64,000 nucleotides of DNA, from the NCBI RefSeq assembly GCF_003353065.1, contig NZ_CP027806.1:3864501-3928500 (forward strand), in the 5' to 3' direction. Within the stretch, counting starts at the first letter, position 1, and each line of letters begins with the position of its first letter. Below the pieces are notes generated by a model. That model made no database searches and was not told the DNA's origin. It worked only from the letters and a program-made list of their open reading frames with translations. Source of the stretch: Cyclonatronum proteinivorum. Its GTDB lineage: Bacteria > Bacteroidota > Rhodothermia > Balneolales > Cyclonatronaceae. A program made the position numbers and the translations under genes. Shown here piece after piece: positions 5,579 to 31,635 of the stretch.

Positions 5579-8500
5579 ATGAAACACATCGTCACCACTT
5601 TTTTATTGGTTTTTGTCATACTTGCCGCAATCGCAGCGACGAAAGCGGAAGCTCAGTTTATTAAAGATCCCGAGATTATTTCCGAATATCTGGATACCCT
5701 GATTCTCACCCCTGAAGAAAGGCGGCATCTGCAGCAGATGTATGAAATGGTCGGACTCCGCGTCGGGAAAATTGTTGGCGGAGAAGACGCTGACATAGCC
5801 GACTACCCCTGGACCGTTGCCCTCGTTACCGCCGGCGGGTCGCAGTATTGCGGCGGCACAGTGATTGATGAAGAATGGATTTTAACCGCAGCACACTGTA
5901 TCGGTAGCTCCGCTTTTATACGGGCAGGCGTAACCAATAAGAACGACACCTCCGGTCAGGACCGGCAGGCCGTACAAATCATCAATCACCCTGAATATGT
6001 GAGCGTTACGCAGGGACGCGATATTTCGCTTTTGCGCCTCGGCGAGCCCCTTGACCTGTCAGACCCGAATGTGGCTATCGCCCCGATTTCCACTGAAATG
6101 CACAACCTTCTTGGTTTTGAAGATGAAGGCGTGCCTTCCATTATTACAGGCTGGGGCCGGCTATTCTCCGGCGGACCAGCACCGGACATCCTGCAGTGGG
6201 CAGAAGTGCCGATTGTATCAAACGAGCAGGCGCAGGTCGGTTACCCCAATGTGGTAATTACCGATGACATGATTGCAGCAGGGCTGTGGGGGGAAGGCGG
6301 TGTTGATGCCTGTCAGGGTGACAGCGGCGGCCCTCTTGTTGTACCCGACGACAGCAGCCCGGTTGGCTACGTTGTGGCCGGTATTACGAGCTGGGGCACC
6401 GGTTGCGCCGGACCAACACACATGGGCATGTATGCACGCGTTTCATACTTTGAAGACTGGATTTTCGAAAATTCCGGCCTCTCTTTCCCCGGTCCCGGTG
6501 AAGACGACGGCATCCCCCCTGCAACTATCACGGACCTGAGCGTAACCGGCCTACCGACGGAAAACAGCATTACCCTCAGCTGGACCGCCCCCGGCGGCAG
6601 CGGTGACGAAGGGCGTGCCGGTTCTTATGACCTGCGCGTTTCCGACGCCCCGATCGATGAAACCAATTTCGATGACGCTACCCCTGTTGAAGGCGTCGGG
6701 CGCCCTCTGCAGGCAGGTACAGCAGAAGTTTTCACCGTAGAAGCGCTCGAGCCGCTGACAGAATACTACTTCGCACTCAAAGCCAGCGATTTTTTCGGAA
6801 ATGAGTCCGGTCTCTCAAATGTGGTGAACACGGCAACCGACGGCTCGCCGAGAATTGAATTTAGTGCCACAAGTTTCGATCTCACGCTTTCTGCCGGCAG
6901 TACAGCCGAGCGTACCCTGACTCTAACCAACACCGGTGAAGGTTTACTCACCTATGCACTTCCTTCTTTTATGAATGAAGAACGCTTTACCGCTGCCAAC
7001 ATCCGCAGCCTGAACACCACGGCCTTTCCTGCAGGCACGGCAGAAAACCGGGCAGCCGATAACCTGCGTCAGCGGTTTCATTTATGGGAAAGCGGCGCGC
7101 GCGGTCCGCTCAGCACATACGATCAGCAATTGCTGGATGATCGGATTGAAGCGGCGCATCAGGGCATCATCCTCACAGACGAACCCTCCGTTACCATTCC
7201 GTTTGAAAACCTAACCGCTACGGGCGGAGAGTTTTTTGATGTCACCGGTGACGGCTTCACCAACGAGCTTACCGCTGTCCGCGCCGATTTTGTCATCAAT
7301 CAGGCCGGCGGACAAACCTGGGCAAGCGATCTTGCGCTCCTGATCACCAATGGGGATGAAATCAGCCCAAGCACAGTCGTGCTTCAGGTTGGCGGCTTTA
7401 GCGACTTTGGCCCATCCGGCACCCGCATACCCTGGGGAACAGGCAATACCGGCGCGCCGAACACACCGGTTCAAACGACCATCGCCATCCCGACACCCTT
7501 GCTGGTCGACGACCTTACGGTATGGATCGGTCACGGCTGGGGCAACGGAAGCAGCTCAACATGGAGCGGAGAGATCGAAATGATCGGTATCAGCGAAGCC
7601 GCAGCATTTATCAGCTCTATCAGCCCTGCATCGGGCAGCCTTGCTGTTGGCGAAAGCGTTGACCTCACCATTACCTTTGATACCGCAGATCTTGAAGAGG
7701 GCGAATACGAGGCCACTACGCAGCTGCGCAGCAACGACCTCACCAATCCGGTGACCATGCTGTCGTTTACCTTGCTCGTCGGCCCCGAAGACGGCCTGAT
7801 TGTAAGCCCGCGCAGTCTTGACTTTGGGGAAGCGGAGCAGGGTCAGTCGGTCGAACTTCCGGCTACCGTTATTAACAGTGCTGAAGAAGCCATTGAAATT
7901 ACCGGTTTTAGCCTTGATTCCGACGCCTTTGCTGCGGATGTACCGCTACTTACCCTCGCCCCCGGCGAGACTGCCGATTTCACCGTCAGCTTTAATCCGG
8001 TTGAAATCGGGGACTACAGCGCAACCCTTTCCATCGAAAGCACCGCTGAAAACAGTCCCGCCCTTATCAGCCTCAGCGGTGTGGGACTCGAAGCGGACGG
8101 GCCTTTCAGCATGGTTACGTTCCGCCTCGATATGTCCGTGATGAAGGCTGAAGGTACCTTTATCCCCGAGGCCGGCGATGAAGTATTTGTGCGCGGCAAC
8201 TTCGGCGCATGGGGCCTGAACCCGGATTTCATGCTGCAGCAAAACGGCGACACCATTTATGAGGCGGAACTCTTCCTCGATGGTGAACCCGGCCGGGTGT
8301 TCGAATACAAGTACTTTATTCAGGCGGGTGATGGTCGTTCGATCCCTAACGGAGGCTGGGAGCTGAATACCGTTGGCGAAGACGGCAACATCAACCGGGT
8401 AGTGACCCTCTCTTCTCCCTTCATTATGCTTCCCATCGTTTACTACAACAATCAGGTTACTGTTGATACAGAAACCGATTTCGAAATGCCGGCGCAGTTT

Positions 8501-8755
8501 ACGCTCAGCCAAAACTACCCCAACCCCTTCAACCCGACAACAACCATTCGCTGGGAAATGCCGGAGGCCGCCGAAGTTAGCCTCGAAGTATTCAACCTTC
8601 AGGGTCAGCGGGTAGCGCAGCTTGCAGGCGGAATGCACACGGCTGGCACGCACACCGTAAGTTTCGACGCAAGCCGCCTTGCTTCTGGCATGTACGTGTA
8701 CCGTCTCCGTGCAGGCGATTTCGTCCAAACCCGCAGCATGATGCTGTTGAAATAA
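5579..8755 (+). CDS. Secreted trypsin-like serine protease with T9SS sorting domain
   Basis: A 1058-residue exported multidomain protease. A signal peptide (1-25) and short propeptide precede the activation site at Lys64-Ile65 in GKIVGGED. The S1 domain (65-300) carries His106 in LTAAHC, Asp148 in RDISLL and Ser249 in GDSGGP; Asp243 at the trypsin-189 position predicts cleavage after Lys/Arg. Next come a fibronectin type III domain (about 313-418), a jelly-roll segment resembling the proprotein-convertase P domain (about 540-660), an ASH/HYDIN-like beta domain (about 735-835), a CBM20/CBM48-like starch-binding fold (about 843-950, FVRGNFGAWG) and a type A T9SS sorting domain (about 975-1058, YPNPFNPTTTIRW). 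It is the probable client of the secretion operon at 26.8-31.6 kb. Its own terminator follows. Confidence 0.93.
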   Translation: MKHIVTTFLLVFVILAAIAATKAEAQFIKDPEIISEYLDTLILTPEERRHLQQMYEMVGLRVGKIVGGEDADIADYPWTVALVTAGGSQYCGGTVIDEEWILTAAHCIGSSAFIRAGVTNKNDTSGQDRQAVQIINHPEYVSVTQGRDISLLRLGEPLDLSDPNVAIAPISTEMHNLLGFEDEGVPSIITGWGRLFSGGPAPDILQWAEVPIVSNEQAQVGYPNVVITDDMIAAGLWGEGGVDACQGDSGGPLVVPDDSSPVGYVVAGITSWGTGCAGPTHMGMYARVSYFEDWIFENSGLSFPGPGEDDGIPPATITDLSVTGLPTENSITLSWTAPGGSGDEGRAGSYDLRVSDAPIDETNFDDATPVEGVGRPLQAGTAEVFTVEALEPLTEYYFALKASDFFGNESGLSNVVNTATDGSPRIEFSATSFDLTLSAGSTAERTLTLTNTGEGLLTYALPSFMNEERFTAANIRSLNTTAFPAGTAENRAADNLRQRFHLWESGARGPLSTYDQQLLDDRIEAAHQGIILTDEPSVTIPFENLTATGGEFFDVTGDGFTNELTAVRADFVINQAGGQTWASDLALLITNGDEISPSTVVLQVGGFSDFGPSGTRIPWGTGNTGAPNTPVQTTIAIPTPLLVDDLTVWIGHGWGNGSSSTWSGEIEMIGISEAAAFISSISPASGSLAVGESVDLTITFDTADLEEGEYEATTQLRSNDLTNPVTMLSFTLLVGPEDGLIVSPRSLDFGEAEQGQSVELPATVINSAEEAIEITGFSLDSDAFAADVPLLTLAPGETADFTVSFNPVEIGDYSATLSIESTAENSPALISLSGVGLEADGPFSMVTFRLDMSVMKAEGTFIPEAGDEVFVRGNFGAWGLNPDFMLQQNGDTIYEAELFLDGEPGRVFEYKYFIQAGDGRSIPNGGWELNTVGEDGNINRVVTLSSPFIMLPIVYYNNQVTVDTETDFEMPAQFTLSQNYPNPFNPTTTIRWEMPEAAEVSLEVFNLQGQRVAQLAGGMHTAGTHTVSFDASRLASGMYVYRLRAGDFVQTRSMMLLK

Positions 8756-25000: not shown

Positions 25001-26341
25001 TTAAGCATCAAAAAGCTTCTTCATTCGCTTTTTAAACTGATTTAACGCAAAATCGACAAACCATGCTTTTTCGAGCTTAAATGGCATGGTTTGATACGGC
25101 GCAAAGATTTCATCTACGACATCAATTACCAAACCGGCTAAGCGTCCGGCCTCGGTTTCGAAGGCATCACGCAGTTCAGGGTTTTCCCGCAGAAGTCTGT
25201 CTATCAGATACAGCCCGAACGCGATATGCCGGGATTCATCCCGTTTCAGTAACCCGATGCCTTCACGCAGGCCCGGCAGCATATCCTGTTCAGTCAGCAT
25301 CCGGTGATATGCTTCGTAGCCCGTTTCTGCCAGCGTGCCCTCCACTATCATATTATAGGTAAGCGAAGCGAAAAGCTGTGCTTTGGGGCTGTCGTCCTTA
25401 TGCAGACGCTGCAGGGCTGTTTCGAGTTCACCGTGAAAAAGCCTGCGATACGCCGGGCCGTGATAATGTTCCATATCAAAAGGTTTCCCGATCACATCGC
25501 GGAGAAAGAGTGCAAAAAACTCGGTGTGCTTGGCTTCCTCCCACAAAAAGCTTGTTAGAAACAGTTCTTCTTCAATGCGACCTTCTCTCGCAAGCGTTTG
25601 GATGAGGGGGAGCAGATCGAGGGTAACCGCCTCTTCGCCGCCCATAAACATGGCCGTAAGCCTGAAAATGAGATCTTTTTCAGTATCTGTAAATGTTACC
25701 CACTGCGCCCGATCCTTGCTGAAATCAATGTCAGCGGGGTTCCATACCCCAAGTTGTTTCGCCTTCTGAAAAAGCTGCATGGGGATACTTTCAAAATCAA
25801 GTCCCCTGCTTGTGGTTGAATAGCTGCTTCTTCCGTCTGACTTTTCCGTTTTACGGTGGCTGAGGCCTGTTTTTGAAGGATCCTGTGCCTGAGATGCCTC
25901 AGCTGAATACGGTGTATCTGGTTTGGCAACTGCCTCAGCGGCTGCAGAAAGGAGGGCTTTGGCCGCATTCCGCTGCAAGCCAAGGGTGAGCATGCTTCCT
26001 TTTTCAACCCGTATTACCCCGCTCATGATCATAAACAGCGGGTCTTTGTTATCTCTTATGAGTTTTTCCCAAATATGGTAGGGCGCAGTAAGTATGTAGG
26101 GAGCGGATTGAAGATCTGCTTCACCTGCATAGCGCAGCTGCTTACAGCTACCGTTTTCAAGGTCGAGGAAGAAGCCTGTATGTTTTTTCCCGTCCGCATT
26201 GAGCCCGTCATCGAATCTAAGGACGATAGCATCTTTCCATTTTTTGCCAGCTTCCCTGTATGCTTCACTTGCGTTAATCGTACGCATCCAGGAACTCATC
26301 CATGAATCTGAAAATAGCGCGTCTTTTTTAGTCATACCCAT
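25001..26341 (-). CDS. SCP2-like domain fused to R2-like ligand-binding oxidase (R2lox)
   Basis: A 446-residue fusion. Residues about 1-140 resemble an SCP2 lipid-carrier domain (GFFLDLENGSCKQLRY, YHIWEKLIRDNKDPLFMIMSG, GSMLTLGLQ); a polar linker (about 140-180) follows. Residues about 180-446 are an R2lox: a ribonucleotide-reductase-R2-like protein that assembles a Mn/Fe site, binds a fatty acid and makes a Val-Tyr ether cross-link. All metal ligands are present: Glu236, Glu269, His272, Glu334, Glu369, His372, as are the cross-link residues Val239 and Tyr329. Their spacing equals that of Geobacillus R2lox, as I recall it, with a constant offset of 167. It lies 61 bases after ytxJ, at the end of the T9SS operon. 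The reaction is unknown. Confidence 0.88.
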   Translation of the reverse strand: MGMTKKDALFSDSWMSSWMRTINASEAYREAGKKWKDAIVLRFDDGLNADGKKHTGFFLDLENGSCKQLRYAGEADLQSAPYILTAPYHIWEKLIRDNKDPLFMIMSGVIRVEKGSMLTLGLQRNAAKALLSAAAEAVAKPDTPYSAEASQAQDPSKTGLSHRKTEKSDGRSSYSTTSRGLDFESIPMQLFQKAKQLGVWNPADIDFSKDRAQWVTFTDTEKDLIFRLTAMFMGGEEAVTLDLLPLIQTLAREGRIEEELFLTSFLWEEAKHTEFFALFLRDVIGKPFDMEHYHGPAYRRLFHGELETALQRLHKDDSPKAQLFASLTYNMIVEGTLAETGYEAYHRMLTEQDMLPGLREGIGLLKRDESRHIAFGLYLIDRLLRENPELRDAFETEAGRLAGLVIDVVDEIFAPYQTMPFKLEKAWFVDFALNQFKKRMKKLFDA

Positions 26342-26402: not shown

Positions 26403-26789
26403 TCAGAGCTCATCGAGCGCTTCCATTACCGCTTCGCCCCTCACCGCTCCGTGCGAGCCATGCCAAAAAGCCTGACCTTTATACAAAACAATAGCCTGTG
26501 GGGACTGATGCTGCACACCCGATTTTTCTGCAACATAATTCGAGAGTGGTCTTTCAGCTCTTACGTCAATAAAATAGACATCCGCCTTTTCCATAATTTG
26601 TTCCATATTCCGTTCAAGGCTCAAAAGGGAATAGGTGCAGACGCTGCAGGCAAAACTGTGCTTATAAATCAAAGCCGGGCGTGCATTCGAATCAAATATC
26701 GGCTCCGCCTGATCCTTGTTTTCAAAACGGGCCCACTTATCTGAAATGGACGGACCGCCTGACGATTTGAATATGTCTAAGAAACTCAT
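26403..26789 (-). CDS. ytxJ: YtxJ-like bacillithiol-system redox protein
   Basis: A 128-residue thioredoxin-fold protein of the YtxJ (DUF2847) family, linked by genome context in other bacteria to bacillithiol and to removal of bacillithiol from proteins. The active-site region is IYKHSFACSVC (Cys48 and Cys51), with LVID-like FIDVRAERPLSNYVAEKSGVQHQSPQAIVLYKG containing the cis-Pro. The start codon overlaps the stop of the GldK-like gene by four bases (ATGA), so translation is coupled. Having it inside a secretion operon is unusual and suggests that thiol control matters for one of the neighbours. No bshA, bshB or bshC gene is in the window. Confidence 0.85.
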   Translation of the reverse strand: MSFLDIFKSSGGPSISDKWARFENKDQAEPIFDSNARPALIYKHSFACSVCTYSLLSLERNMEQIMEKADVYFIDVRAERPLSNYVAEKSGVQHQSPQAIVLYKGQAFWHGSHGAVRGEAVMEALDEL

Positions 26790-28771
26790 TCGAACTCCCG
26801 GTCCAGCATGTCAAGAATACTTTCACCGTCTTCCCCAATTCCAGAGCTTACGGCTACACGAAAACCAATACGTGGTGACGCCTGATGACCAAGGCCAAAG
26901 TTACGCACACCTGATCCGATAAAGAATCGGGATGAAGCCCAGCTGCCTCCCCGGTGAATTTTACGGGGCTCATCCAGTTTGAAATAGAGCGAGCTGGTGT
27001 ACCGCTGCTCCCGGTTCAGAATCTGATAGGAGTTGGAATACGCATCAAGCACCCATTCGGAAACATTTCCGGCCATGTTATAAAGGCCAAAATCATTAGG
27101 ATCAAAAGCATTAACCGGAGCCATGAGGGTATACCCGTCAAGGTTGTAGACACCGGGTTCCTGCATGTAATTGGCAAGGAAATTCCCCTGCCGGTCCTGA
27201 ACCGTATAGCCATCCCACGGGAATACGCGTCCGCCTACCCCCGATTTAGCCGAGTACTCCCACTCTGACTCGGAGGGCAGCCGGAAACCAGCCCATTCAG
27301 CGAACATCATAGCCTGATACCAGTTTACTGCAACAACGGGATGGTTATCGTAACGCTGATTATAAAAATAATCTTCAAATCGGAGAATGGTTTGCAGGTT
27401 TTGCTCTTTCCACGAATCTTCAACAGGAAAAAGAAATTCAGGACCATCTATAGAAACGCCTTCGGGCAGCTGATCGGGAGTGAATTCCAGCTCACCGGTA
27501 ATATCGTCGAAAGATTGCCCGTCTTCTGTTATGTACGAGGCATAATAAGCTGCATCAGGGAAATCAAGCCCCATAGCAGCGAGAAACAACTTGTACTCTT
27601 TGTTGGTTACGGTGGTCCTGCTAAGTTTGAAATCCGGTACAAAAACGCGGATACGGCCATAGTTTTGAATCTGAAAGGGATCTTCGTCCATGTGCCCCAA
27701 AACAAAGGTTGAGCCCGGAATTCGTGAAAAGCTTTTAACGTAGGAAGTATTTCCCAATGCAACATCCGTGAATGTCACCCGCGCAGCCAGATCATTTCGT
27801 TTAAGCCCCAGCGTATTGCGGTCAATAGCAATATCTCCAAATGCGTCAAAAAAGGCTTCGCGTTGTGCTTCATTCGCGCTATCCATGTTTTCACGGATAT
27901 ACCTGAACTGGGAATTAAGATCGCGTCCGAGCCGCTGCTCACGTACACCTCTCGAAAGCGGTATTCGAATACCCAAAGCGATTACAACAGAGTGATTTGC
28001 ATCCGGCTTTTCTATAAGCTGATCAATGCCATCAAAGTAGTTATTGAGAAAAATATTATACCTGTACGTTGCAAAAAACTCCGTGCCTAATATCATGGCT
28101 TCAAGACTGCCACCCAGGGAGTAAGAAGGGATCATTTCCGGGATCACTTCATCAATTGCTTTTCCTCCCTCCGTTCTTCTGAGCGGGAAATCCTGTGTCC
28201 ATTCATTACGAAAACCTGAACCCGGTACGATAGCCTGTCCGCTCTCATTTAGAAGATAATCTGTTCTGGGGTTGTGGTACTGATAGGCAAAAGAGGCTTC
28301 AGGACTTACAGCTATGGTTCCGTACACGGGGATCCTTAATGAAAGACCGATTTCAGGACCAATAGCCGTGTTCTTTATATTTCCCGGAATCAGCCCTAAT
28401 TCTGCTATATCATAATCCCATCGAATAGCAGAGCGCTGTAAATCTGAGGAGTAACTCAAGACCGAAAGGCCGAAACGGGCCTGTGCTGTTATGCCCCAAA
28501 AATTATAAACAGGCCGTTGCAGAGTTAACCGAAGGCTGTATCCGTTGATCGGTAGTGGCAACGGATTAAACACATTTGCAAAATTGCGGTAGTTCCCGAT
28601 GAAACTGGACGTTCCGACTTCTAAATTCAGATCAACATTTCGGAGGAGTGAGAAACGTGACTGAACAGATTCCTGCTGATCCCGCAAGTCAGGCTCTGAC
28701 TGAGCGAAACTTTCATTTGAAGAAGTTGCGGCTATGAAGACCACAAAAAAAAGAACAGTAACAAGTTTCAT
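26786..28771 (-). CDS. GldK/GldJ-like FGE-fold protein with N-terminal beta barrel
   Basis: A 661-residue exported protein. A signal peptide (1-24, ending SFAQ) lacks the lipobox cysteine that GldK and GldJ have. Residues about 45-275 look like an outer-membrane beta barrel (alternating strands, LGIRIPLSRG at its end). Residues about 345-645 are a formylglycine-generating-enzyme-like fold: IPGSTFVLGHMDED, RTTVTNKEYKLFL, NHPVVAVNWYQAMMFAEWAGFRLPSE, YNMAGNVSEWV, HRGGSWAS. This is the fold of the T9SS/gliding proteins GldK and GldJ, which form rings at the outer membrane. The barrel may replace the lipid anchor or a separate PorP/SprF-like partner (inference). It lies 55 bases after gldN; ytxJ overlaps its end. 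Confidence 0.8.
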   Translation of the reverse strand: MKLVTVLFFVVFIAATSSNESFAQSEPDLRDQQESVQSRFSLLRNVDLNLEVGTSSFIGNYRNFANVFNPLPLPINGYSLRLTLQRPVYNFWGITAQARFGLSVLSYSSDLQRSAIRWDYDIAELGLIPGNIKNTAIGPEIGLSLRIPVYGTIAVSPEASFAYQYHNPRTDYLLNESGQAIVPGSGFRNEWTQDFPLRRTEGGKAIDEVIPEMIPSYSLGGSLEAMILGTEFFATYRYNIFLNNYFDGIDQLIEKPDANHSVVIALGIRIPLSRGVREQRLGRDLNSQFRYIRENMDSANEAQREAFFDAFGDIAIDRNTLGLKRNDLAARVTFTDVALGNTSYVKSFSRIPGSTFVLGHMDEDPFQIQNYGRIRVFVPDFKLSRTTVTNKEYKLFLAAMGLDFPDAAYYASYITEDGQSFDDITGELEFTPDQLPEGVSIDGPEFLFPVEDSWKEQNLQTILRFEDYFYNQRYDNHPVVAVNWYQAMMFAEWAGFRLPSESEWEYSAKSGVGGRVFPWDGYTVQDRQGNFLANYMQEPGVYNLDGYTLMAPVNAFDPNDFGLYNMAGNVSEWVLDAYSNSYQILNREQRYTSSLYFKLDEPRKIHRGGSWASSRFFIGSGVRNFGLGHQASPRIGFRVAVSSGIGEDGESILDMLDREFE

Positions 28772-28826
28772 AAATAATTTATTAGGAATAAGCGTCTCTG
28801 GTCGTCAGGAATTTTTAATTATCGCC

Positions 28827-29762
28827 TTAAGGTCGGGCGTTTCTGAGAAGGTTAGGAATTTCCCCATAGGTAAACTGCATCATGATTGAGAACAGCTGTG
28901 TCCGCACTTCTTCACGAATAAAATCCAGCTCATATTCAAATGGCGGATCTACTGCCCGGGCAAGTTCGATACCATCTATACTATAAAAATGATGGGGATA
29001 CCTGAATGACATCATCAGATCGTAAAAGGAGTTGCTTTCATCAACAAAAGAGCGGCCCACCCCGCGTGAAAAAAAGAACTCCATGGTTGAATGGTCACTG
29101 AAATCGAGCAAAAAGCCAAGACCGTTTTCCAGATCGCTGAAATAATCGTCGGGATTGCTGTCAAACGTGAAGCGCCCTGGATACAGAGCACTACCAAGAA
29201 TAAGCTGCCCTGGTTTAACATTTAAACCATTTTCATCAATTCGAACTCGGAATTCAAATTCAAACATGCCAATGGCACTGAAATTTGCGAAATAGCTGTC
29301 ATTGTCATCAACAAAATTTCTCAAATTGAATACATCGCCCCGGGCAGGTAAAAAAATAACCTCACCGGTTCTGAGCCTGGAAACGACCTCCAACTGCGTG
29401 TCAAGCTGTGCAATAAGCTCATCATAGCCTAATGGCTGATCTTTAACAAATATTCGCTCCATGCCAGCTCTCATACTGGGCTGCACGCTGTACGCCTGCA
29501 CAAAGCCACCTCTGATGGCATCATTTAAAGAGTCGCGTAATGCGTGCCAAAAACGTTGATTATTTCCGCTTAAGCGGATGAGATCCTCATTTTCTCTTGA
29601 AGTTGTAAATCTAAGAAAAGGATCATGAGGCTCAATTAATCCGGTAATTCGCGCCGTGGATTCCCATGAGGATGAGACTGGTGGAATGAGGTCTTGTGCC
29701 CGGACCGACATACTTAACAAAAGCAGAAAGAATACAGTCAGGAAAACGGAACGCATGTTCAT
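28827..29762 (-). CDS. gldN: GldN/PorN-like T9SS periplasmic protein
   Basis: A 311-residue exported protein with a signal peptide (about 1-22, ending VRAQ). The segments SLNDAIRGGFVQAYS, DNDSYFANFSAIGMFEFEFRVRIDENG and FYDLMMSFRYPHHFYSIDGIEL match the layout of GldN/PorN, which sits in the periplasm with GldK as part of the ring complex. The C terminus (EEVRTQLFSIMMQFTYGEIPNLL) is helical. The start overlaps the gldM stop by four bases. Assignment rests on these segments and on the operon position after gldL and gldM; the sequence is divergent. Confidence 0.75.
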   Translation of the reverse strand: MNMRSVFLTVFFLLLLSMSVRAQDLIPPVSSSWESTARITGLIEPHDPFLRFTTSRENEDLIRLSGNNQRFWHALRDSLNDAIRGGFVQAYSVQPSMRAGMERIFVKDQPLGYDELIAQLDTQLEVVSRLRTGEVIFLPARGDVFNLRNFVDDNDSYFANFSAIGMFEFEFRVRIDENGLNVKPGQLILGSALYPGRFTFDSNPDDYFSDLENGLGFLLDFSDHSTMEFFFSRGVGRSFVDESNSFYDLMMSFRYPHHFYSIDGIELARAVDPPFEYELDFIREEVRTQLFSIMMQFTYGEIPNLLRNARP

Positions 29763-30901
29763 CGGGTGTTTAGTGAAAATAAATCCTGAAATTGGTTATT
29801 TGGCACCGGCTCCGTGACCCCTTCAAAGTTTATTCGGTTTACTCCCTGAATTTCAAATCGAACTTCATTACCTCTTATGCTGCTGTCGAGCTGAGAGAGC
29901 CGGAAGGGGCCGTAGATAAACTGTCGTGTCGCCTGGTTACGTCTGTTGTCCCGGGGCAAATCGGCTGCATTTACAGTTATAGTTTGCGGCGGACGCCCTT
30001 GCTGATAGGAGCTGATGCGCATGATATCGAGCGCGTAACGCGCATCATTTGGATAGTCCTGCAGGAAAGCCGGATCCGGCTGAACGACAATTTCGATCTG
30101 ATCGTCATTAATATTCACAACATCCCCAGGGCTTAGAATTTCTTCTGTCAGATGCCGGCGCATAAAAACCCTTGGCGGAGGAGGGGGGACTACTTCAAAG
30201 TTTCTTACATCAATTAGACGGGGTTCACCTGATTCAGAAAGCCGGTAAACAGAAATATTAGTTTCTGAACCAGCAGGAGACCATCTTATGCGGTTTCCCT
30301 GAACCCTGAGCCCCCGGGAAGACTCTCTTAATTCAATTTCTGATGCAGAAACACCTTCAATCAGAAAACTGAGGTCGTTTTCAGCATTACTTACCAAACG
30401 CTGCGGCGTATTTGAGAAAATATTTACCGTAGGCCTGCGAACTACAAATGTGCGCTCGACTTCACGGGCTTCAACTTCATTATCAACAATGGACTCTATG
30501 AAGATATTTGCTCTGAAACTCACCTCTACTTCATTTATTTCCGGTGAAACCCCTTCAAATAATTGAGAGGTATCAAATCGGAATTTTCGCGCTCCTGCAT
30601 CATATACAAGCCCTTCAGGACCTTCAATAATTTCAACACCAGGGTTTGCAAGTGTGTTGAGTGCATTCCCGTTAATCCCCGAATCAAGCGGTTGAAAGAA
30701 TATATCGGCCGAAAACTCATCACCGGCAAAAAGCAATCTGCTTTCGGGTATCGCAACAGGACTGATATCATCCCGGTCAATCACCAATGCACCTGATTCA
30801 AGCTGGTATGTTGACATCGCATAGAGCAGTATTGGCAAATATATAGCGGTCATAAAATATAACCGCAATCGCATAATATTACTTCCGCTTGGTGCTGGCA
30901 T
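29759..30901 (-). CDS. gldM: Short GldM/PorM-like T9SS motor protein
   Basis: A 380-residue protein with one N-terminal membrane helix (about 10-30) and a periplasmic chain of beta domains. PVAIPESRLLFAGDEFSADIFF resembles the second domain of GldM, and RTFVVRRPTVNIFS plus NAENDLSFLIEGVSASEI resemble the start of the third (the V-x-P and GV-NP-like elements). GldM of Flavobacterium is about 510 residues; here the helical-bundle domain D1 that normally follows the membrane helix seems to be missing. GldM with GldL forms the proton-driven motor of T9SS. Gene spacing: five bases after gldL, four-base overlap with gldN. Function by homology and context. Confidence 0.72.
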   Translation of the reverse strand: MPAPSGSNIMRLRLYFMTAIYLPILLYAMSTYQLESGALVIDRDDISPVAIPESRLLFAGDEFSADIFFQPLDSGINGNALNTLANPGVEIIEGPEGLVYDAGARKFRFDTSQLFEGVSPEINEVEVSFRANIFIESIVDNEVEAREVERTFVVRRPTVNIFSNTPQRLVSNAENDLSFLIEGVSASEIELRESSRGLRVQGNRIRWSPAGSETNISVYRLSESGEPRLIDVRNFEVVPPPPPRVFMRRHLTEEILSPGDVVNINDDQIEIVVQPDPAFLQDYPNDARYALDIMRISSYQQGRPPQTITVNAADLPRDNRRNQATRQFIYGPFRLSQLDSSIRGNEVRFEIQGVNRINFEGVTEPVPNNQFQDLFSLNTR

Positions 30902-30906
30902 ATAGT

Positions 30907-31635
30907 TTAGCTGCGGTTAAACTGATCAAATTTTTGGGAAGCCTGCTTCACATTTTTGTCAAGCTGCGCGATACTTTCAGTAGCCTGTTTCAGGTTTTGG
31001 TCAAGCATTTCGACCCGTGAAGACAAATCCATCTGCTGCATTTTCACGAGTGAACCCATGTTTTTCTCATAACTTTCGATGGATTGACCAAACTTTGCTA
31101 CCTGCACCCCCAACGCTAAAAATTGCTGCTGAAGATCATTCATCTGCTGGTTGTATTTACTTGTTACCGCCGCCTGCTGGGCGATTACTTCAACCATTTG
31201 ATCGAGGCGGTGATCAAGCTTTTGCTCCAGCTGCTGCTGTACCTGTTGCTTTAGCTTATCCGTGTAGTCTTCCCCAAAGTCCAGACTCGGGCTTACAACA
31301 TTATTAGCCCCTGCAAAAGCAGGAGCGGCTGATTTTACAAGTTCCAAATCGGCTTTATCAGGGTGAATTTCTTCATAGTCTTCCCCTTTAACAAACCCCA
31401 TAATTATGAATACAATACACTCACCAAGAAAACCAATGGGCATGAATATCTGAAACAGAAGATCCCCTTGCTCTGCAGTAAGCAAGCCCCAAAAAGGAGG
31501 TTGCCAAAGTTTCATCAACACTCCAAAAATAGCAAAAGCGCCAAAGACGCCTACAAAAAACTGATCCCACTTAATTCTGCGAACCAAATAATAAATCGGG
31601 ACGTGGTCCGGGCGGTACTTATCTTCTAAATTCAA
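30907..31635 (-). CDS. gldL: GldL/PorL-like T9SS motor protein
   Basis: A 242-residue inner-membrane protein with two helices (about 24-44 and 60-82) and a long cytoplasmic coiled coil rich in Gln and Lys (about 120-240). Lys42 in GVLMKLWQPP and Glu72 in GFLGECIVFIIMGF correspond to the membrane Lys and Glu of the GldL proton path; the loop between them is about eight residues longer than in Flavobacterium. GEDYEEIHPD matches the conserved segment after helix two. GldL and GldM together convert proton flow to rotation or force for T9SS export and, in some species, gliding. It is the first gene of the operon. Confidence 0.85.
   Translation of the reverse strand: MNLEDKYRPDHVPIYYLVRRIKWDQFFVGVFGAFAIFGVLMKLWQPPFWGLLTAEQGDLLFQIFMPIGFLGECIVFIIMGFVKGEDYEEIHPDKADLELVKSAAPAFAGANNVVSPSLDFGEDYTDKLKQQVQQQLEQKLDHRLDQMVEVIAQQAAVTSKYNQQMNDLQQQFLALGVQVAKFGQSIESYEKNMGSLVKMQQMDLSSRVEMLDQNLKQATESIAQLDKNVKQASQKFDQFNRS

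Follow-up and report, generated by a model that had tools for sequence, protein, structure and literature searches.

A putative PorG-GldK fusion protein encoded in a type IX secretion operon of Cyclonatronum proteinivorum

Introduction

In the type IX secretion system (T9SS) of Bacteroidota, the lipoprotein GldK (PorK) is a subunit of a moving track, to which PorG, an eight-stranded outer-membrane protein of the system, is held by a disulfide bond between its C-terminal tail and Cys343 of GldK, the equivalent of Cys356 of PorK (Liu et al. 2025, PMC12635249). This bond matters for secretion and gliding. In Porphyromonas gingivalis and Flavobacterium johnsoniae, it lets the track drag the PorG barrel, which was proposed to help eject carrier-client complexes from SprA; SprF, an outer-membrane carrier, is also disulfide-bonded to GldK (PMC12635249). 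According to this model, outer-membrane proteins must be tied covalently to the moving track, and its authors call the use of disulfides for this unprecedented (PMC12635249). Here we analyzed a stretch of 64,000 nucleotides from the Balneolota bacterium Cyclonatronum proteinivorum (contig NZ_CP027806.1, positions 3,864,501 to 3,928,500; hereafter the window), which holds an operon whose last gene encodes a 661-residue protein joining a predicted outer-membrane beta-barrel to a GldK-type domain. With some reserve, we consider it probable that PorG and GldK are fused in this protein, a peptide bond standing in for both the PorG-GldK disulfide and the GldK lipid anchor.

A GldK-type domain preceded by a predicted beta-barrel

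The fusion gene (26786-28771, minus strand, like all of its parts given below) encodes a signal peptide (approximately residues 1-23, 28703-28771, from sequence reading), a predicted eight-stranded outer-membrane beta-barrel resembling PorG (residues 47-271, 27959-28633), a helix-containing linker (residues 272-345, 27737-27958, from the AlphaFold2 model), and a GldK/PorK-type domain of the formylglycine-generating enzyme (FGE) fold (residues 349-640, 26852-27727). No cysteine occurs anywhere in the 661 residues, and the absence of a lipobox cysteine reported in the first-pass annotation of this DNA therefore holds.

The C-terminal domain matched PF03781 (E=2.1e-44, residues 349-640). Among the NCBIfam models, the GldK model TIGR03525 ranked first with 168.5 bits, ahead of GldJ (86 and 76 bits) and then of other FGE-fold families; relatives scored 193-230 bits with TIGR03525. 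In a PDB-wide sequence search with the fusion, the top matches were PorK entries (9ots, 9mzu, 9p6h, and 9myj), with true FGE lower. In a fold search with the predicted structure, three of these four entries came out on top, aligned along the full length of PorK. A tree of 58 FGE domains placed the members of the class to which C. proteinivorum belongs, that is, fusions and barrel-less paralogs, in one group, outside which lay the GldK proteins of Bacteroidia and related lipoproteins of the FGE fold. No second gldK was found in the host genome, which is complete (a single contig of 4.29 Mb). Both the GldK-type nature of the domain and the lack of a canonical gldK elsewhere had been proposed from the letters alone, and both were borne out. 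Apart from its fold, the protein shares with GldK/PorK its position as the sole GldK-like protein of the genome, encoded together with GldL and GldM. It differs in its N-terminal barrel, in the lack of a lipobox and of the reactive Cys356/Cys343, and in an extra insert at approximately residues 401-445. The P. gingivalis PorKN ring (9MZU, 9OTS, 9MYJ, and 9P6H) likewise has the fold predicted for the GldK domain and a partner corresponding to the gene in the GldN position, whereas there PorK is a lipoprotein and PorG is a separate, sub-stoichiometric partner.

A barrel at about residues 45-275 had also been suggested at first pass, and structure prediction agreed with it. An AlphaFold2 run on a 6-row alignment modeled the barrel only; the rerun with 30 rows predicted eight meander strands (residues 47-58, 77-91, 94-108, 128-150, 153-165, 213-227, 230-241, and 260-271), mostly with a predicted local distance difference test score (pLDDT) of 83-96. 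The earlier barrel-only model gave fold matches to OmpA, Ail, OmpX, NspA, OmpW, PagL, and OprF. With an even number of strands, both ends of the barrel would lie on one side of the membrane; assuming the orientation of OmpA-type barrels, the C terminus of the modeled barrel would face the periplasm.

Relationship of the barrel to PorG

We took DUF6089 (PF19573) as the PorG family, since the Bacteroidota proteins recovered with it end in a short cysteine tail, as described for PorG. It was present in all of the Bacteroidota genomes tested (14/14) and above the cut-off in 0/15 Balneolota, and PF19573 gave no match in the fusion proteins. Profile comparisons nevertheless link the two, less strongly in the clade of the window than in Rhodothermota-like members. 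The PorG profile matched the N-terminal domain of Rhodothermota-like GldK proteins with a probability of 97.4% (E=9e-12) and a separate upstream barrel of Rhodothermota-like genomes with 94.5%. The barrel of the window's own clade reached 7-8% against the PorG profile alone in hhalign. Against a merged profile of PorG and the upstream barrels it reached 76% with a score of 43, compared with a maximum of 19.4 among 40 column-shuffled decoys; control barrels (PorP, PorV, and two further barrels of the window) stayed at or below 12% on this profile. A second merged profile, made of PorG and the N-terminal domains, gave 50% for the window clade, a value to be read with care because PorV reached 17% on it. 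Two motifs are common to the fused barrel and PorG: an N-terminal G..x-Y/F-x-G-D/N-like motif and D/N-Y-F/L-D before the last strand.

The barrel thus resembles PorG, and we infer homology to PorG for the window clade. Both have eight strands (predicted, in the fusion) and the shared motifs, and in both the C-terminal side leads to GldK. The fused barrel differs in being joined to GldK by a peptide chain instead of a disulfide, and its sequence has diverged beyond the Pfam model.

The reactive cysteine of GldK

The column of PorK Cys356 was surveyed in an alignment of 48 GldK-type proteins, including 19 fusions. All six lipobox GldK proteins of Cytophagales have a cysteine there. The fusions carry N, T, S, K, E, R, Q, or A, never Cys; in the window protein the residue is Asn530 (codon 27182-27184, minus strand), as placed by this alignment and by a pairwise alignment with PorK. 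Since barrel-less GldK proteins without this cysteine also exist, its loss fits a PorG-GldK fusion and is not diagnostic alone.

Chitinophagaceae-type GldK proteins (L154, L167, L180, and L181) lack the RGC cysteine and have two C-terminal cysteines, which suggests a different disulfide site for PorG in these proteins.

The N-terminal domain could also be a generic OmpA/OmpX-type barrel, a mere outer-membrane anchor in place of the GldK lipid that neither is PorG nor does the job of PorG. The fold matches, being generic eight-stranded barrels, would suit such an anchor, as would the missing PorG match of the single barrel sequence and a 1:1 stoichiometry, unlike that of PorG. We nonetheless regard it as unlikely, because the profiles link the barrel to PorG within the class, the shared motifs lie near the N terminus and before the last strand, no separate DUF6089 PorG was detected, and the cysteine that reacts with PorG is lost.

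Proposed coupling of the barrel to the track

A PorG-GldK fusion could work as follows. The N-terminal eight-stranded barrel would sit in the outer membrane, and the chain would leave it on the periplasmic side, like the C-terminal tail of PorG, to enter the FGE-fold GldK domain. Together with the GldN-position protein, this domain would form a moving periplasmic track driven by GldLM. The peptide chain would then couple barrel and track, and GldK could do without its lipid anchor and without the disulfide. What speaks for this reading is the fusion itself, its recurrence, the missing reactive cysteine, and the failure to detect PorG, SprF, or another gldK, all as judged from sequence; a PorG function of the barrel, assembly of a ring, and transmission of force through it are inferred. 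The barrel-GldK fusion would accordingly be a variant of the T9SS track, a proposal drawn from sequence and structure prediction.

Stoichiometry poses the main difficulty. Canonical GldK far exceeds PorG in number, and with no other GldK in this genome, every track subunit would bear a barrel unless the fusion is processed. The published ring has 33 subunits and measures 380-540 angstrom (PMC12635249). From these dimensions, we calculated a spacing of approximately 36-51 angstrom per subunit, so that one eight-stranded barrel each is sterically possible. As a tentative extension, which we hold to be somewhat doubtful, every subunit of the track may bring its own integral outer-membrane barrel. 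A ring of lipoproteins on which a few PorG proteins ride by disulfide would then have given way to a ring of tens of barrels, free of cysteine and lipid, that turns in the outer membrane. Mixed tracks could be built instead in genomes with an additional, barrel-less GldK paralog.

Further points weigh against the proposed fusion of PorG and GldK. The window barrel has no PorG match as a single sequence, homology there needing merged profiles and structure. The fusion scores below the curated equivalog cut-off of TIGR03525 (350 bits), and the window proteins miss all of the curated cut-offs for GldK, GldL, and GldM. Barrel-less paralogs of the class also lack a cysteine at the Cys356 column, and four Chitinophagaceae GldK proteins without a barrel have N or A there. 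The absence of a separate PorG from the window genome holds for DUF6089, other separate PorG-like barrels not having been searched for. In some Rhodothermota-like genomes, another PorG-like barrel gene lies upstream of the fusion, and PorG there may not be confined to the fused barrel. Finally, the assignment of GldN is weakly supported, being mainly positional.

We found no description of a PorG-GldK fusion in the literature searched on the T9SS in Balneolota, Rhodothermota, or Salinibacter, or on PorG and GldK. If the reading is correct, a natural cysteine-free fusion would be independent evolutionary evidence for the covalent-track model of 2025 and would suggest that permanent attachment is sufficient and that bonding need not be reversible. 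It also raises the question of whether a track can work when each subunit bears a barrel, and the cysteine-free single-chain version would be a simpler target for structural work.

Distribution of the fusion in the class

The neighborhood survey proposed at first pass was carried out and found the same fusion across the class. GldM was detected in 32/245 class genomes and GldL, counting clear matches, in 31/245, and it is these genomes that carry the fusion. In every GldLM-bearing class genome seen, the operon GldK has an N-terminal barrel as far as the contig covers it. In the Rhodothermota-like families (f11 and f18), the operon gldK encodes a barrel-like N-terminal domain of approximately 150-200 residues. 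Among the matches listed from outside the class for 394 genomes sampled from the phylum, none extends into the barrel part. Several class genomes carry a barrel-less GldK-like paralog elsewhere, many of these with a lipobox; the window genome has none.

A one-off fusion was thus rejected, the architecture being class-wide. So was an assembly or frameshift artifact, as the same architecture occurs in many independent genomes with no internal stops; chance is excluded because approximately 30 class relatives have the open frame and the two domains as well. Protein length alone was discarded as a marker of the fusion: Chitinophagaceae GldK proteins are 600-654 residues long through an internal insert.

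The position of the FGE gene at the end of the operon, contrasted at first pass with the canonical K-L-M-N order, is real here and in two relatives (G005 and G008, order L-M-N-fusion). It is a local rearrangement, however, and most relatives keep the canonical order, with fusion-L-M-N in G001, G003, G011, G127, and G128. The operon is split across contigs in G018 and runs off the contig in G002.

In Rhodothermota-like operons, a second, separate PorG-like barrel without a cysteine tail is encoded directly upstream of the fused gldK, at L084:7180-7917, L088:4250-4843, and L094:4867-5472. In four relatives, a sigma-factor-like gene (of the extracytoplasmic function type by eye) adjoins the fusion operon on the opposite strand (L035:1417-2055, L036:7214-7786, L037:10254-10820, and L039:2742-3317); it is absent from the window.

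The motor proteins and the remaining T9SS

Upstream of the fusion gene, and in the same direction, lie genes for a GldL-like inner-membrane motor subunit (242 residues, TTG start; 30907-31635, minus strand), a GldM-like shaft (380 residues; 29759-30901, minus strand), and a GldN-position protein (311 residues, with a signal peptide; 28827-29762, minus strand). The open reading frame coordinates gave the junctions noted before, of 5, -4, and 55 bases. The annotation of the four genes as GldL, GldM, GldN, and a GldK-type FGE protein was supported, for GldN mainly by position.

The GldL-like protein matched TIGR03513 (E=1.5e-7, below its cut-off), and in a PDB search, GldL chains appeared among coiled-coil noise. 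Its Lys42 and Glu72, already pointed out as retained motor residues, are invariant across the class alignment. By motif reading, Glu72 fits the position of the proton-path residue E49 of F. johnsoniae (PMC8986121). The GldM-like protein matched TIGR03517 (E=8.7e-10, profile positions 232-482 only) and PorM crystal structures (E=4e-7). GldM proteins of the class have 340-400 residues compared with 507-539 in canonical operons, approximately 130-190 fewer, and judging from this length and from the matched profile positions, domain D1 seems to be absent.

The GldN-position protein had no match in family or PDB searches. In hhalign, its probabilities against canonical or Rhodothermota-type GldN profiles were 9-26%, compared with 0.2% for barrel controls. 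A C-terminal tail (WW..G.G..NG.F) is lost from this protein in the window, L033, and L034, and is kept in the gldK-first relatives L035, L036, L037, and L038.

The window genome also encodes a full-length SprA (1541 bits), 12 PorV-family matches above or near the cut-off, and 91 matches to the sorting tail TIGR04183. One of these tails ends a trypsin-like protease of the window (5579-8755, plus strand, from reading of the open reading frame), a likely client that had been noticed at about 5.6 kb. The earlier argument that the system works seems sound, and we judge this T9SS to be probably functional.

Four near-complete Balneolota genomes (G004, G013, G014, and G030) encode a full-length SprA (e.g., L050), the PorV family, and 46-80 sorting-tail matches, and no GldL, GldM, or operon GldK was detected in them, which makes theirs a T9SS translocon without a recognizable motor. 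Since several class genomes combine SprA, PorV, and client tails by the tens with no detectable GldL or GldM, possession of a T9SS does not depend on the operon there. It could thus encode a related motor with another role, secretion running without it as it seemingly does in many GldLM-less Balneolota, and a GldM without D1 and a weak GldN would agree with this. We consider such a role improbable, as GldL retains its motor residues, the GldM-like protein matches domains of PorM, and the ring protein PorK is what the FGE part resembles most.

Carrier and enzyme interpretations

The barrel had first been likened to PorP/SprF, a carrier whose fusion to GldK would tie an adhesin carrier to the track. 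The disulfide between SprF and GldK (PMC12635249) is in line with this, both being outer-membrane barrels covalently attached to GldK, as is a PorP/SprF-like gene found directly before gldK in Algoriphagus. The likeness did not hold, and a carrier is very improbable: PorP/SprF barrels are larger (approximately 320 residues, compared with eight strands in approximately 225), the PorP/SprF profile gave the fused barrel a probability of 1.6%, and the family (PF11751) was not detected in the window genome. A reading of the protein as a normal enzyme of the FGE or sulfatase-modifying kind that carries a barrel, to which the fold and PF03781 would point, has next to no probability, as FGE-type catalysis requires cysteines and is excluded in their absence, PorK is the better match in both sequence and fold searches, and the gene lies in a GldLM operon.

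Neighboring genes

A bacilliredoxin (YtxJ/BrxC) gene (26403-26789) overlaps the stop codon of the fusion gene by 4 bases. A bacilliredoxin gene also adjoins the fusion in the relative G005 (L033:5435-5830), an odd neighbor for a cysteine-free protein. Positions 25001-26341 encode a 446-residue protein in which a domain resembling the small subunit of ribonucleotide reductase follows an N-terminal extension of 190 residues.

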